Below, one piece after another: positions 9,003-12,576 of a stretch of 49,735 nt of DNA. Numbering within the stretch: position 1 is the stretch's first letter; every line of letters begins with the position of its first letter. The stretch covers positions 1-49,735 of the forward strand of contig JACNFR010000031.1 in NCBI GenBank assembly GCA_014384555.1, in the 5' to 3' direction. The position numbers and the translations under genes were made by a program. This stretch comes from Candidatus Nitrosopumilus sp. (lineage in GTDB: Archaea > Thermoproteota > Nitrososphaeria > Nitrososphaerales > Nitrosopumilaceae). The notes below the pieces were generated by a model that was given only the letters and a program-made list of their open reading frames with translations, searched no databases and was not told the DNA's origin.

Positions 9003-10196
9003 TCAAAGGGCTTGGAACTCTTCACTCCACTTGTGATAAGCGCGGATCATTTCAGTTGAAACACTTGGTTTTCTTCTTTCCATAATATTTTTGAAATCAG
9101 CTGTTGTGAGATCTCTTGGTTGAATTGGAGATTCGCCTTCAACTGGTTCATGATAATCAGGAGCGTTGAAAATTTCATGAACAGTTTTAATTTGTGCTGC
9201 TTGGCAGACATCTTTGATATCACTTGCACTGTATCCGTCAAATAATTTTGCCAAATCCCTATTGTTCACACTCATATTTTTATTTAATTTAGCAGTATAT
9301 TGACTAAAGAGATTTTCTCTAGCTTCTTGTGTAGGTAAGGAAACATAAATTCTCTTTTGGAATCTTCTAAGAAATGGCCAGTCAAGACTCCATGGTTTGT
9401 TTGTCGCTCCAATTACATAAAGCATCAATTGTTTACCTTTACTATTAACACCATCCATCTCAGTTAAGAATTGGTTTTTAGTTCTAACTTCTCCACCAAC
9501 TTCACTACTTCTAGAACCCAATAGAGAATCAACTTCATCTACAAATAAAATTACAGGTTTACCTTCTTTCTCAGCATATTGTCTTGCCATTGCAAATAAT
9601 TTTGAAACATTCTTTTCTGCCTCGCCCAGCCATTTACTCATCATAGATGATGCATCCACATTTATGAAATAACCATCCATCTCATTTGCAGTTGCTGCTG
9701 CAAGCATAGTTTTTCCAGTTCCAGGTGGACCGTATAGTAACATTCCTTTTGGCCATCCAAGTGGAAACAAGTCAGGTCTTTTAGTAGGATATACAATGGA
9801 TTCACGTAATGCGCTTTTTGCATCATCTAATCCAATGACTTGATCCCAAGTAACATCAGGTTTTTCTTTCATAATTAATTCTTCAAAATCATTTTCATTT
9901 TCTTGTCTTTGAACAGATTTCTTTTGCTCTTCATCAGAAGCTTTAGGATCAACTGCAGGCTCAACTCCATGAGCCTGTTGTAATGCAGTAATTCTTCCAT
10001 GGTAAGAATTACATCGATCTTTGTAAATTTGATTTAATTTACTGGTAGGGTAAAGTTGTAATAATTTCACGAGGGCATCAATTGCATGTTGATAATGAGT
10101 GATTGCCATACCACGTGCACCTTGAGAATCAAATTTGATGGCTTCAGAAGCATATTTGCTTGCTGTGTTTTCTAATTCTTGGGGGGCTAAACTCAT
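9003..10196 (-). CDS. cdvC: CdvC, Vps4-like AAA+ ATPase of the ESCRT cell-division system
   Basis: 397 residues. An N-terminal three-helix MIT domain (about 5-78) is followed by a charged linker (80-110) and an AAA+ module with Walker A GPPGTGKT (156-163), Walker B LFVDE (217-221) and the arginine-finger region FLRRFQKR. The C-terminal part has the Vps4-like helices and ends RAYHKWSEEFQAL. CdvC disassembles ESCRT-III polymers; its MIT domain binds CdvB-type tails. It starts at ATG 10196, 9 bp after a helical acidic protein and downstream of an ESCRT-III-like gene. Confidence 0.95.
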   Translation of the reverse strand: MSLAPQELENTASKYASEAIKFDSQGARGMAITHYQHAIDALVKLLQLYPTSKLNQIYKDRCNSYHGRITALQQAHGVEPAVDPKASDEEQKKSVQRQENENDFEELIMKEKPDVTWDQVIGLDDAKSALRESIVYPTKRPDLFPLGWPKGMLLYGPPGTGKTMLAAATANEMDGYFINVDASSMMSKWLGEAEKNVSKLFAMARQYAEKEGKPVILFVDEVDSLLGSRSSEVGGEVRTKNQFLTEMDGVNSKGKQLMLYVIGATNKPWSLDWPFLRRFQKRIYVSLPTQEARENLFSQYTAKLNKNMSVNNRDLAKLFDGYSASDIKDVCQAAQIKTVHEIFNAPDYHEPVEGESPIQPRDLTTADFKNIMERRKPSVSTEMIRAYHKWSEEFQAL

Positions 10197-10205
10197 CTTA
10201 ATTAC

Positions 10206-10691
10206 CTACGCATTATCTCCTTGAGAATTTTCTAGGTATCCTACGGTGTGAATCTCAGTAGCAAAATTGGTTAAATTAATTGCACTTGTTTCATGTTCAT
10301 TATAATCAGGTCCGTCAAGATATTTTTTTTTAAAATCAGATTTTTCAGATATATGACTATGCATATCTTTGACTTTGTTTATTGAATCCTCAGCAGAAAG
10401 AATCAGTTCAGATACCTCATCATCCAAATCACCTAGAGAGCCTGCAGTTTCAGTAATTATAGAGGTAAAATATTTTAGAATTGAACGCATTTCTTTTTTA
10501 TCAGCATATTTGCACATCATAAAATCAGCAATTCCAACGATTTTATCTAAATCCTGTAATTCATCTAAAGAAAGTTTATCAATTTTTGAATCATCAGTAG
10601 ATTTTATTTCGGTTAATTTTTTGTCAATTTTAGAAGAAATGGATCTTATACGCTCTACATCCTTTAAAAAATCTCGTTTTTGATTCAACAT
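10206..10691 (-). CDS. Helical acidic protein encoded between an ESCRT-III-like gene and cdvC
   Basis: 161 residues from ATG 10691, one base after the stop of the upstream gene. The frame also contains an earlier Met at 10721 inside that gene. The sequence is predicted almost wholly alpha-helical, with Lys/Asp/Glu-rich heptad-like stretches (about 1-115) and a looser C-terminus. There is no membrane segment or recognised domain. Tight coupling to the gene before it and to cdvC suggests a role in the same membrane-remodelling machinery (inference). It could be a very divergent ESCRT-III core or an unrelated partner. Confidence 0.75.
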   Translation of the reverse strand: MLNQKRDFLKDVERIRSISSKIDKKLTEIKSTDDSKIDKLSLDELQDLDKIVGIADFMMCKYADKKEMRSILKYFTSIITETAGSLGDLDDEVSELILSAEDSINKVKDMHSHISEKSDFKKKYLDGPDYNEHETSAINLTNFATEIHTVGYLENSQGDNA

Positions 10692-10692
10692 C

Positions 10693-11301
10693 TCAAGTAT
10701 TGCATAGTTTAAAAAAATCAAGATTAGGGTACTGCTTACTTAATTTAGAGTCGGCCATCAATTTTACTTCATTAAGTAATGTTGACGACTCTGTGTTGGA
10801 TTGACTAAAATCAAATCTGGCAGTAGTAAGAGCAGCAGAATCAAGGACAATGCTTCCCAAATGAACTGATATTTCAGATAATTTTTGGCTACAATTTGGA
10901 ATAATTCTAAACAATTGAGCACTGACAGTTCGAATTAAAGGAATAGAAGAAGGTAAGATTTCTGGAATGCTGCCAATATTGGAAATTTGCCGCGCATTCT
11001 TTTTTACTTGTAATAAAATATCCAAGGAATAAGTCACAAGATGTTCTAGAGTAAGGGAATCAACATGAGTTTTATCTGATTCATCAAAATCATGAACCAA
11101 ATCCTTGTTTGTTTCTTTTAATTCAGATTGTTTATCATTAAGAACATCTATTATTTCATCCAATAGATTCATAGAATATTCCAATCTAGGAACCAGGGTT
11201 ACAGAGTGAGAAATATTTTCAAACCCTAATGAATCGACACTGTATTTTACCAACATACCAATTACCACTTCTAGATTTTGTATATCAGGACAGTGTATCA
11301 A
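10693..11301 (-). CDS. Divergent ESCRT-III (CdvB/Snf7-like) protein
   Basis: 202 residues. The order of segments matches thaumarchaeal CdvB paralogues: a long helical pair (LVPRLEYSMNLLDEIIDVL, about 36-75), a second helix with a polar face, then IPLIRTVSAQLFRIIPN and LSEISVHLGSIVLDS (about 118-155). It ends with an ESTLLNEV-like helix and KLSKQYPNL, like the AE-rich helix and FPxLP end of CdvB. No MIM-type tail or winged helix follows. The call rests on pattern matching by eye. The start is TTG 11301; ATG 11256 is an alternative. It probably opens the operon with the helical gene and cdvC. Confidence 0.65.
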   Translation of the reverse strand: MIHCPDIQNLEVVIGMLVKYSVDSLGFENISHSVTLVPRLEYSMNLLDEIIDVLNDKQSELKETNKDLVHDFDESDKTHVDSLTLEHLVTYSLDILLQVKKNARQISNIGSIPEILPSSIPLIRTVSAQLFRIIPNCSQKLSEISVHLGSIVLDSAALTTARFDFSQSNTESSTLLNEVKLMADSKLSKQYPNLDFFKLCNT

Positions 11302-11415
11302 ATAATTTAGTAACCACAGTTACACCCATCTGCAGATACAATTTTGATTTTTTTTGAGTATTTGTGTAAAGGAATTTAGCTCTCAATTTTACCTAATAAC
11401 AAATCAAGGATAATC

Positions 11416-12576
11416 ATGGTAAATGAGCACGTTTTAACAGTTAGTTTAGAAGAATTTGGATTAAGCAAGTATGAAGCCCAGGCATATGTAGCCCTTATAG
11501 CAAAAGGGACTATTTCAGCCAGTGAATTAGCATATTATTCTGAAATCCCCAGAACAAAAATTTACCCAACATTACTAAAATTAGAAAATAAGAAACTAGT
11601 CATTATTTCAAAAAGCAAACCCATAATGTGTACAGCAATTGCTCCAGAGGATGCTTTTGATGGAATCATTCATGAGCAAATCAATAAAGTAAATGCAATG
11701 AATACACTAATTTCAAATTTAAAAAAGGCAAGTGAAGAGAGTAGAAAAACGAGAGGTTCTGAAGAAAAAAGATATTTCCATTTGAGTGCAAATAATGTTT
11801 TATCTCAGCTCCAAACAATGATTGATGGTTCAAAAGCATCAATCAAAATTATGACAGATCAGTGGGGTTTTGGATTATTAGCTGAATGCAGAGAGCAATT
11901 ACTATCAGTATTGCGTAGAAATTTAGATGTCAAAGTACTAGTTTCACCATCACAAATTTGTTCTGAATCATATAGATCTATTCCAGATGGAGTTGAAATT
12001 AGAGCATCAGAGATTACACAAAATTGTTTCATTTTTGATGAAACAGAATTACTAATGATAAATAATGAAAACGGTAAAGGAGCAATTTTTTCATCTACAG
12101 AAATTTTAGGAATAAATCAAGAAAAAGTATTTTCAAATATTTGGAAAAACGCTACTAAAACTAAAGCTCTTGCAGATATGACAAAAGTAGAGGCACAAGA
12201 AATTTACAAAATAATCAAAACAGTAAACGAGGCAGGTTTGATGTATATTCTAAACTCTGCAATGATATCTAAAAAACAAGATGCAGACATGCTCAAGTTA
12301 TTAGAAAAAAATGGAATTTCACTAAAATCAAAAACACTTGATGATATAATCGAGATAATGGATGCAGTTATGCAAATTACATGTTCAGGACATGTTAATT
12401 TTGAAGCAAATACCAAAAACATCACAGTAGAATCAAAATTGAACAGTGGACATTCATTACCATGGGTATCAGTTTTGGATGGATGTCTTCAAAAACAAGG
12501 ATATAAGACCAGAACGGTGTACCAAAATAATTCAAACAAAGGCGAAAAAGTACTCATTAAAATAAGTAAAAATTAA
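11416..12576 (+). CDS. TrmB-family transcriptional regulator
   Basis: 386 residues. An N-terminal TrmB winged helix (LEEFGLSKYEAQAYVALIAKG, then a helix-turn-helix SASELAYYSEIPRTKIYPTLLKLE) spans about 8-75, followed by a coiled coil and a phospholipase-D-like effector domain (about 115-255, DQWGFGLLAECREQLL). An extra C-terminal domain of about 120 residues is of unknown function. TrmB proteins sense sugars or other ligands and bind promoters. It is divergent from the ESCRT-III-like operon across 114 bp, so it might control that operon (inference). Start ATG 11416. Confidence 0.85.
   Translation: MVNEHVLTVSLEEFGLSKYEAQAYVALIAKGTISASELAYYSEIPRTKIYPTLLKLENKKLVIISKSKPIMCTAIAPEDAFDGIIHEQINKVNAMNTLISNLKKASEESRKTRGSEEKRYFHLSANNVLSQLQTMIDGSKASIKIMTDQWGFGLLAECREQLLSVLRRNLDVKVLVSPSQICSESYRSIPDGVEIRASEITQNCFIFDETELLMINNENGKGAIFSSTEILGINQEKVFSNIWKNATKTKALADMTKVEAQEIYKIIKTVNEAGLMYILNSAMISKKQDADMLKLLEKNGISLKSKTLDDIIEIMDAVMQITCSGHVNFEANTKNITVESKLNSGHSLPWVSVLDGCLQKQGYKTRTVYQNNSNKGEKVLIKISKN

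Follow-up and report, generated by a model that had tools for sequence, protein, structure and literature searches.

The cdvC locus of the window and its relatives

We have analyzed a stretch of 49,735 nt from Candidatus Nitrosopumilus sp. (contig JACNFR010000031.1, assembly GCA_014384555.1), a member of the Nitrosopumilaceae; this whole stretch is hereafter called the window. On its minus strand lies a cdvC gene preceded by two genes, P0001 and P0002, which would encode a stripped pair of ESCRT-III proteins. The places that these genes occupy before cdvC are abbreviated as slot 1 and slot 2. The families of the order are numbered f1 to f17, f1 being the family of the window and f8 the one that we take to be Nitrososphaeraceae. 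The features of the locus are the following.

10693-11256, minus strand: slot-1 gene P0001, 187 amino acids from a conserved ATG; derived ESCRT-III protein of CdvB1/2 type
10693-11301, minus strand: longer reading frame of P0001, 202 amino acids if the upstream TTG at 11301 is used
10714-10737, minus strand: C-terminal motif KQYPNLDF of P0001, located where other families have the MIM2 core FPDLP
10206-10691, minus strand: slot-2 gene P0002, 161 amino acids; putative truncated ESCRT-III protein derived from winged-helix CdvB
9003-10196, minus strand: cdvC (P0003), 397 amino acids; Vps4-type ATPase with MIT, AAA and Vps4_C domains
11303-11313, minus strand: TATA-like element TTACTAAATTA, candidate operon promoter directly upstream of the TTG at 11301

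As an earlier note on this DNA had described, the three open reading frames follow each other in the direction of cdvC, with a gap of 1 base between P0001 and P0002 (position 10692) and of 9 bases between P0002 and cdvC (10197-10205), and P0001 carries the KLSKQYPNL end. The 202 amino acids which that note assigned to the first product correspond to a frame that is present, but this length depends on TTG 11301; the protein most likely starts at ATG 11256 and comprises 187 residues, because 10 of 21 orthologues have a stop codon between the place of the TTG and the conserved ATG, another 3 of the 21 are out of frame there, and promoter-like DNA is conserved in this region. In an alignment of 29 upstream regions, drawn from the 54 slot-1 loci of f1, the TTACTAAA part of TTACTAAATTA is shared by 80% or more of the sequences and the final three bases of the element by 60% or more, and we regard the element as a candidate promoter of the operon. 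P0003 lies above the Pfam cut-offs for MIT, AAA and Vps4_C and matches the NCBIfam CdvC profile NF041006 with an E-value (E) of 9.6e-151 and 502 bits, below the curated equivalog cut-off of 650. The cdvA gene of the same genome sits on a different contig, outside the P0001-P0002-cdvC operon.

The three genes stand together in 23 of 25 genomes of the same genus (tblastn). Matches to the CdvC profile with E of 1e-90 or lower occur in at least 176 of 201 genomes of the order; among the matches listed, 100 cdvC stretches were chosen by hand across families, and 92 of them were counted as loci, since five stretches carried second copies of cdvC, one was a repeat and two were short. Both partner genes precede cdvC in 31/35 loci of f1, 6/6 of f2, 2/2 of f3, 10/23 of f8 and 24/26 of the other families; f1 loci, anchored on cdvC alone, keep slot 2 in 34 of 35 cases and slot 1 in 31. 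The gene order, which the earlier note had proposed to follow across Nitrosopumilaceae, is thus not confined to one assembly. In other families the slot-1 protein is of CdvB1/2 type, strongly conserved and about 215 residues long, and in most of them slot 2 holds a protein of about 250-330 residues combining an ESCRT-III core with a C-terminal winged helix; the median length of slot-2 proteins in f1 is 165. To judge from these sequences, the locus most likely represents the main cdv locus, cdvB1/2-cdvB(winged helix)-cdvC, that is ancestral to the order and to lineages outside it, with stripped proteins. It resembles the cdvA-cdvB-cdvC locus of Sulfolobus in having an ESCRT-III gene directly before cdvC, and the slot-2 proteins of most families without amoA are, as in Sulfolobus, CdvB-like with a winged helix; the window operon differs in that cdvA lies elsewhere, an extra CdvB1/2-type gene is present and the ESCRT-III pair of f1 has no docking parts.

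The earlier note stated that the best-known CdvB of ammonia-oxidizing archaea is usually encoded away from CdvC, and those CdvB proteins of Nitrosopumilus maritimus that are named in the literature are indeed encoded elsewhere. One CdvB at or near cdvC is already on record: according to a passage of PMC5840170, N. maritimus has four CdvB paralogues, of which a short one belongs to the main locus, and a figure legend in PMC8970359 places one CdvB gene near cdvC in three of four Thaumarchaeota.

Other arrangements were also encountered. The cdv locus is disintegrating in f8, where 13 of 23 sampled cdvC loci have no slot 2 and seven have neither partner; loci showing this decay include L068, L084, L093, L138, L139, L142 and L143. 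In genus g24 all five second cdvC copies (L043, L049, L087, L160, L162) stand without either ESCRT-III partner. The metagenome-assembled genome G028 (f5, no amoA) has two cdvC genes (L061, L062), each with an ESCRT-III gene before it, one locus holding the full pair and the other having a cdvA match directly after cdvC. In G188, of the same genus as the window, slot 1 is split: all that precedes slot 2 and cdvC is a match to the last 30 codons (C1:1352787-1352876), and a distant slot-1 copy (C1:137776-138306) has no counterpart of the last 10 aligned residues, which looks like a rearrangement through the gene.

Relationship of P0001 and P0002 to ESCRT-III proteins

P0001 matches the NCBIfam CdvB1/B2 profile NF041005 with E 7.2e-9, the match covering only residues 96-197 of the 202-residue form, and the solved CdvB2 chain in the PDB with E 6.9e-9; profile comparison with the slot-1 proteins of other families gives E 4.6e-22 and 6.5e-19. 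Its predicted model (predicted local distance difference test score, pLDDT, 81; predicted template modeling score, pTM, 0.77) consists of five long helices followed by a short one, and all nine Foldseek matches with E of 0.001 or lower are CdvB or CdvB2, the CdvB2 filament being the best (E 5.9e-6). Superposition on this filament gives Z 20.1 and a root mean square deviation of 4.1 over 170 residues, with the first non-ESCRT entry at Z 12.7. The fold match is support rather than independent proof, because the alignment fed to the structure predictor was made of CdvB homologues. Pfam, Snf7 included, returned no ESCRT-III match for P0001, which was also missed by a search of the genome with the Snf7 profile; weak matches of P0001 or P0002, such as those to topoisomerase, PspAA or CRT10 (E 0.01-0.02), were dismissed as chance.

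On the basis of core homology and predicted fold, P0001 is assigned to the ESCRT-III/CdvB superfamily, in agreement with the earlier note, which had described it as ESCRT-III-like and divergent, retaining the order of the helices but lacking a winged helix; profile and structure comparisons do find the ESCRT-III helices in it. It shares with CdvB1 and CdvB2 (NF041005; PDB 9s97-9s99) the fold, the helix order in the model, a sequence match and the gene slot, and differs from them in its diverged N-terminal half, short deletions of 4 and 8 residues and an altered MIM2 core. P0001 is a relative and not a member of the CdvB1/B2 equivalog, because it scores 35.4 bits against a cut-off of 350 and the MIM2 core is absent.

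For P0002, an initial iterative search that mixed both kinds of protein was set aside as evidence, since helical profiles drift; in its place each kind was given a profile of its own, controlled by reversal and shuffling. Profiles were compared for the 57 slot-2 proteins of f1 (the P0002 family), 18 intermediates from f2, f3 and f8, and the slot-2 proteins of other families; L029, L067 and L094, first sorted into slot 2 and found on inspection to be of slot-1 type, had been moved before this comparison. The P0002 family matches the intermediates with E 1.5e-9 and a score of 64.4, whereas none of 60 column-shuffled controls exceeded 16.3 and reversal of one profile gave no more than 22.1. The strongest reversed control, P0002 family against its own reverse, reached 28.9 (E 0.0011), below 64.4 but not negligible. 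The intermediates in turn match the winged-helix CdvB proteins in slot 2 of other families with E 3.4e-15, and slot 1 more weakly (2e-7 and 8e-7). In searches with single proteins, run with a database size Z of 100,000, the intermediate profile is matched at E of 0.01 or lower by 53 of the 57 f1 slot-2 proteins, the P0002 of the window giving 1.7e-3, and at E 0.01 none of the 57 matches the slot-1 profiles. Among 20 stretches from f2 and f8 fetched once the first profiles had been built, seven f8 slot-2 proteins match both the P0002-family and the CdvB profiles and four of f2 match only the latter; f8 is therefore the real bridge between P0002 and CdvB. The intermediate profile used in this last test and in the comparison with the 28.9 control was an earlier one that contained two of L029, L067 and L094.

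A phylogenetic tree constructed with selected sequences (12 of the P0002 family, 14 intermediates, 11 other slot-2 and 12 slot-1 proteins) is consistent with this chain. P0002 proteins join the f8 intermediates with support of 90/75 and all the intermediates with 100/100, and all slot-2 proteins split from slot 1 at 100/100. In a second tree, which omits the P0002 family, 29 slot-2 proteins likewise form one side of a branch (100/100) and P0001 joins the slot-1 proteins of ammonia oxidizers, beside those of f8 (95/99). Long branches, flagged by the tree program, are present in these trees.

P0002 is thus best explained, from its sequence relatives, as a truncated derivative of winged-helix CdvB traced through intermediates, and the earlier view that the second product has no recognized family is not supported, given that relatives exist and that profile chain, tree and slot position link it to CdvB. 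Neither the NCBIfam CdvB profile NF041008 nor the Pfam ESCRT-III profiles are matched by P0002 itself, and its family matches MIT with E 0.008 over 22 columns only. Like CdvB with a winged helix (NF041008; PDB 2xvc, 9s9j) it stands directly before cdvC, and homology runs through the intermediates; unlike it, P0002 has no winged helix, no MIM2 region and probably not all of the N-terminal helix. We file it as a CdvB derivative and not as CdvB proper, because none of the 57 f1 proteins matches the winged-helix profile described below. From its position and helical make-up, P0002 is probably arCOG08707, which a passage of PMC10936438 describes as a coiled-coil protein upstream of thaumarchaeal cdvC with no reported similarity to known proteins; the difference lies in the CdvB origin traced here. 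In the open-licence PubMed Central literature, supplements aside, we found no derivation of arCOG08707 from CdvB. Viral contigs yielded no relatives.

Winged helix, MIM2 core and their partners

In Sulfolobus, CdvA recruits CdvB via the winged helix and CdvC binds ESCRT-III by a MIT-MIM2 contact, as summarized in parts of PMC5840170, PMC8970359 and PMC7615534. Both docking parts were followed across the order together with amoA. This gene was detected in 22 of the 24 genomes examined from f1, f2, f3 and f8 (the two misses include the assembly of the window itself) and in none of 18 from the remaining families, not counting f11 and f16. The winged-helix profile matches none of the 75 slot-2 proteins of the amoA-bearing families, 57 of them from f1, and 23 of 25 elsewhere, the exceptions being f7 and f15; it was built from 13 of these 25 proteins, and 10 of the 12 unused ones match it. 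Compared with the PDB, the profile retrieves GntR-type winged helices at E 0.009 and not 2xvc. Four slot-2 proteins of the order were scanned with the NCBIfam CdvB profile; in two of them, L214 of f10 and L243 of f5, the match extends through the winged-helix part (profile positions 14-256 and 21-254, respectively, of 260), as it does in L228, L240 and L245 outside the order, the last of which (Methanomethylicus) also matches the solved CdvB winged helix 2xvc with E 6e-4. For the f4 and f16 slot-2 proteins scanned the NCBIfam match is limited to the core, and an f16 protein gave no winged-helix match.

The 80 loci with organism names include 69 in which slot 1, slot 2 and cdvC are all present; seven of these were classed as ammonia oxidizers by family or name (Nitrosocaldus, Nitrosothermus, HR04, SAT137 and one metagenome-assembled genome); none of the seven matches the winged-helix profile. 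The remaining 62 comprise 48 that match and 14 that do not, some named loci lying on the same contigs as profile-building genomes, so that this comparison is not fully independent. The profile misses some true cases, because the 14 include L228, L240 and L245; they also include genuinely short slot-2 proteins. Absence of the winged helix is not confined to ammonia oxidizers, as these 14 of 62 loci and the lack of a profile match in f7 and f15 indicate. The open-licence literature in PubMed Central, supplements aside, yielded no report of a CdvB with winged helix from those members of the order that have no amoA.

The MIM2 core was scored with a regular expression adapted from PMC8970359, in which Y was added to the hydrophobic set and any middle residue allowed. 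It occurs in 0 of 54 slot-1 proteins of f1 versus 41 of 47 from other families; one of the f8 matches (L144, IPCIP) is not C-terminal, a short diverged f1 open reading frame (L041) was retained, and L029, L067 and L094, none of which ends in a MIM2 core, were kept outside the counts (with them, f1 becomes 0/55 and f8 9/16). Nearly all f1 proteins end in KQYPNLDF or close to it where EKFPDLP is aligned in other families, and the second proline of the core is replaced in all 54. The MIM2 core of f1 slot 1 has therefore been changed and not merely lost, since the aligned end is conserved, and the absence of a MIM tail proposed previously is correct for the standard core but overlooks the altered motif in its place. 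CdvB paralogues encoded elsewhere in ten f1 genomes keep the core in 28 of 30 cases, these being 30 of 32 places of which one of the two excluded is a slot-1 gene.

A MIM2-mediated binding of thaumarchaeal CdvA to CdvC had been proposed earlier from domain content (in a part of PMC8970359). In our sample of 12 f1 genomes, one of which gave no CdvA match, MIM2-like motifs occur in 10 of 11 CdvA proteins, with 22 motifs against 2.0 in shuffled tails and no count as high in 300 shuffles. Such motifs are present in 1 of 7 CdvA proteins of f8 and in 1 of 10 of other families (L120 of f4, with one motif); L116 and L120 were counted as true CdvA, and L121 and L122, below the Pfam cut-off, were left out. 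This comparison between families is thin, because CdvA passes the Pfam cut-off in a minority of the genomes without amoA and in none of those of f2 and f3; for Nitrosocaldus cavascurensis, a passage of PMC5797428 reports no CdvA.

Other features of the partner proteins are recorded here. The C-terminus of CdvA in f1 and f8 bears a motif with a tryptophan, such as DWLxRM or SWLxQVI, despite a CdvB without winged helix; similar ends occur in 4 of 10 proteins of other families (L119, L123-L125), and some genomes have a second CdvA without the motif. The MIT domain of CdvC (P0003 residues 49-55) shows YPxYxLN between helices in 16 of 16 proteins from outside f1, and the second Y is absent in 12 of 12 from f1, a loss that falls on the same branch as that of the slot-1 MIM2 core.

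P0001 and P0002 diverge fast and are yet kept under purifying selection. Ratios of nonsynonymous to synonymous substitution (dN/dS), obtained from six within-genus pairs per gene, are 0.13-0.22 for P0001, 0.09-0.13 for P0002 and 0.04-0.07 for cdvC (first 332 codons only). Within the genus, identity to the window proteins is 61-82% for P0001 and 65-89% for P0002 (G019 and G021 left out), and the best-conserved CdvB paralogue encoded elsewhere shows 94-99% in five genomes. Upstream of the operon and divergent from it lies a regulator-like gene (11416-12576, plus strand), presumably of TrmB type, the intergenic region being common to both.

A proposed role of the stripped ESCRT-III pair in cell division

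We consider it fairly probable that the locus is the ammonia-oxidizer version of an ancestral operon, in which the stripped ESCRT-III pair forms the core of the division polymer and CdvC is brought in by CdvA. The ancestral operon would have been cdvB1/2-cdvB(winged helix)-cdvC, and its docking parts would have been lost in a graded way, with the winged helix gone in the four amoA-bearing families sampled and further steps in f1, where slot 2 shrank, the MIM2 core of slot 1 was altered and CdvA carries MIM2-like motifs. P0001 and P0002, made with CdvC from one transcript, would be core or nucleating subunits of the polymer that may no longer dock singly to CdvA (through a winged helix) or to CdvC (through a standard MIM2). 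CdvC would reach the division site through CdvA, and its removal of the pair, if any, could proceed via the altered YPNLDF end or via MIM2-bearing CdvB paralogues in a mixed polymer. A reviewed localization result for N. maritimus, given in passages of PMC5840170 and PMC8970359, places CdvA together with CdvC at mid-cell and describes CdvB as diffuse, which fits this interpretation.

Several points weigh against it. The same N. maritimus work (Pelve 2011) is rendered in a passage of PMC5797428 as two CdvB paralogues at mid-cell, and within open-licence PubMed Central literature we found no binding, localization or expression data on P0001 or P0002. Compared directly, the P0002 family and the slot-2 proteins of other families give E 0.04, which is not significant, the aligned ranges agreeing with the chain through intermediates; none of the 57 f1 proteins matches the winged-helix CdvB profile at E 0.01, the four f2 proteins mentioned above miss the P0002 profile, and the predicted model of P0002 is poor (pLDDT 58, pTM 0.26), too low for a fold search. 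The CdvA tails of f1 are proline-rich and their MIM2 motifs were scored by a short regular expression, and CdvA exceeds the Pfam cut-off in 7 of 18 genomes of families without amoA and in 0 of 5 of f2 and f3. The f1-specific changes amount to few events on one branch, so that their coincidence tests cause weakly. Finally, G120 of f1 has neither partner gene beside cdvC, and the full pair is found in only 10 of the 23 sampled f8 loci.

An alternative that develops the idea of a second, specialized ESCRT complex put forward in the earlier note, namely that the pair serves another task (e.g., vesicle release or membrane repair) and paralogues encoded elsewhere divide the cell, is unlikely in our judgment. 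It draws on the faster divergence of P0001 and P0002 in comparison with the best-conserved paralogue and on the location of those N. maritimus CdvB proteins that the literature names, but in most genomes a single cdvC was found, and it is this one that the pair precedes; the pair also traces to that of the main locus. The history is most likely the reverse of that proposed, because the locus is ancestral and in the second tree the three other CdvB proteins of the window genome group with ammonia-oxidizer slot-1 proteins or next to them.

We regard as improbable that P0002 is an unrelated coiled-coil protein, or a hairpin protein resembling the steadiness box of CdvA, that was recruited to the operon. 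The published description of arCOG08707, in the passage cited, leaves such an origin possible, as does the nonsignificant direct match to CdvB; on the other hand, 25 CdvA sequences compared with the P0002 family by hhalign give E 0.33, no significant match to the steadiness-box hairpin, versus 1.5e-9 for the intermediates, and an origin from CdvB is what both the tree and the slot position would lead one to expect. That both proteins are relics on their way to being lost, with little function left, is very improbable in view of dN/dS values of 0.09-0.22, the retention of slot 2 in 34 and slot 1 in 31 of 35 f1 loci and the mostly conserved altered end of P0001, notwithstanding their absence beside cdvC in G120, the broken slot 1 of G188, the 13 of 23 f8 loci without the full pair and the domains lost.

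Returning to the stripped pair as core of the division polymer, the missing docking tails suggest that division has been rewired in these archaea. A stronger version, which we advance only tentatively, is that in f1 the CdvC-binding motif in effect moved from the main-locus ESCRT-III protein to CdvA, the winged helix of CdvB disappeared and the naked cdvC-linked pair came to work with none of the standard docking contacts. If true, this rewiring would explain the reviewed result that puts CdvA and CdvC, but not the tested CdvB, in a mid-cell band of Nitrosopumilus, and the real division ESCRT-III would be the operon pair, which lies outside the constructs of PMC3684127; a passage of that paper reports that one of three N. 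maritimus CdvB proteins polymerizes in yeast.

Published accounts, cited above, already record both a main-locus CdvB paralogue and the coiled-coil protein encoded upstream of cdvC. Our analysis adds that the main-locus ESCRT-III proteins of f1 are without both standard docking parts and keep their position and constraint. It would explain where a protein family with no described similarity to other proteins came from, and it documents winged-helix CdvB in relatives of ammonia oxidizers, although passages of published papers deny it for thaumarchaeal CdvB. The puzzle of Nitrosopumilus division, with its conflicting accounts of CdvB at mid-cell, may thereby be reduced to defined contacts, namely those of the CdvA tail with the MIT domain of CdvC, of the P0001 tail with the same domain and of P0001 with P0002. 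The graded loss across families would provide a natural series for an ESCRT machine that loses its adaptors and is yet retained.

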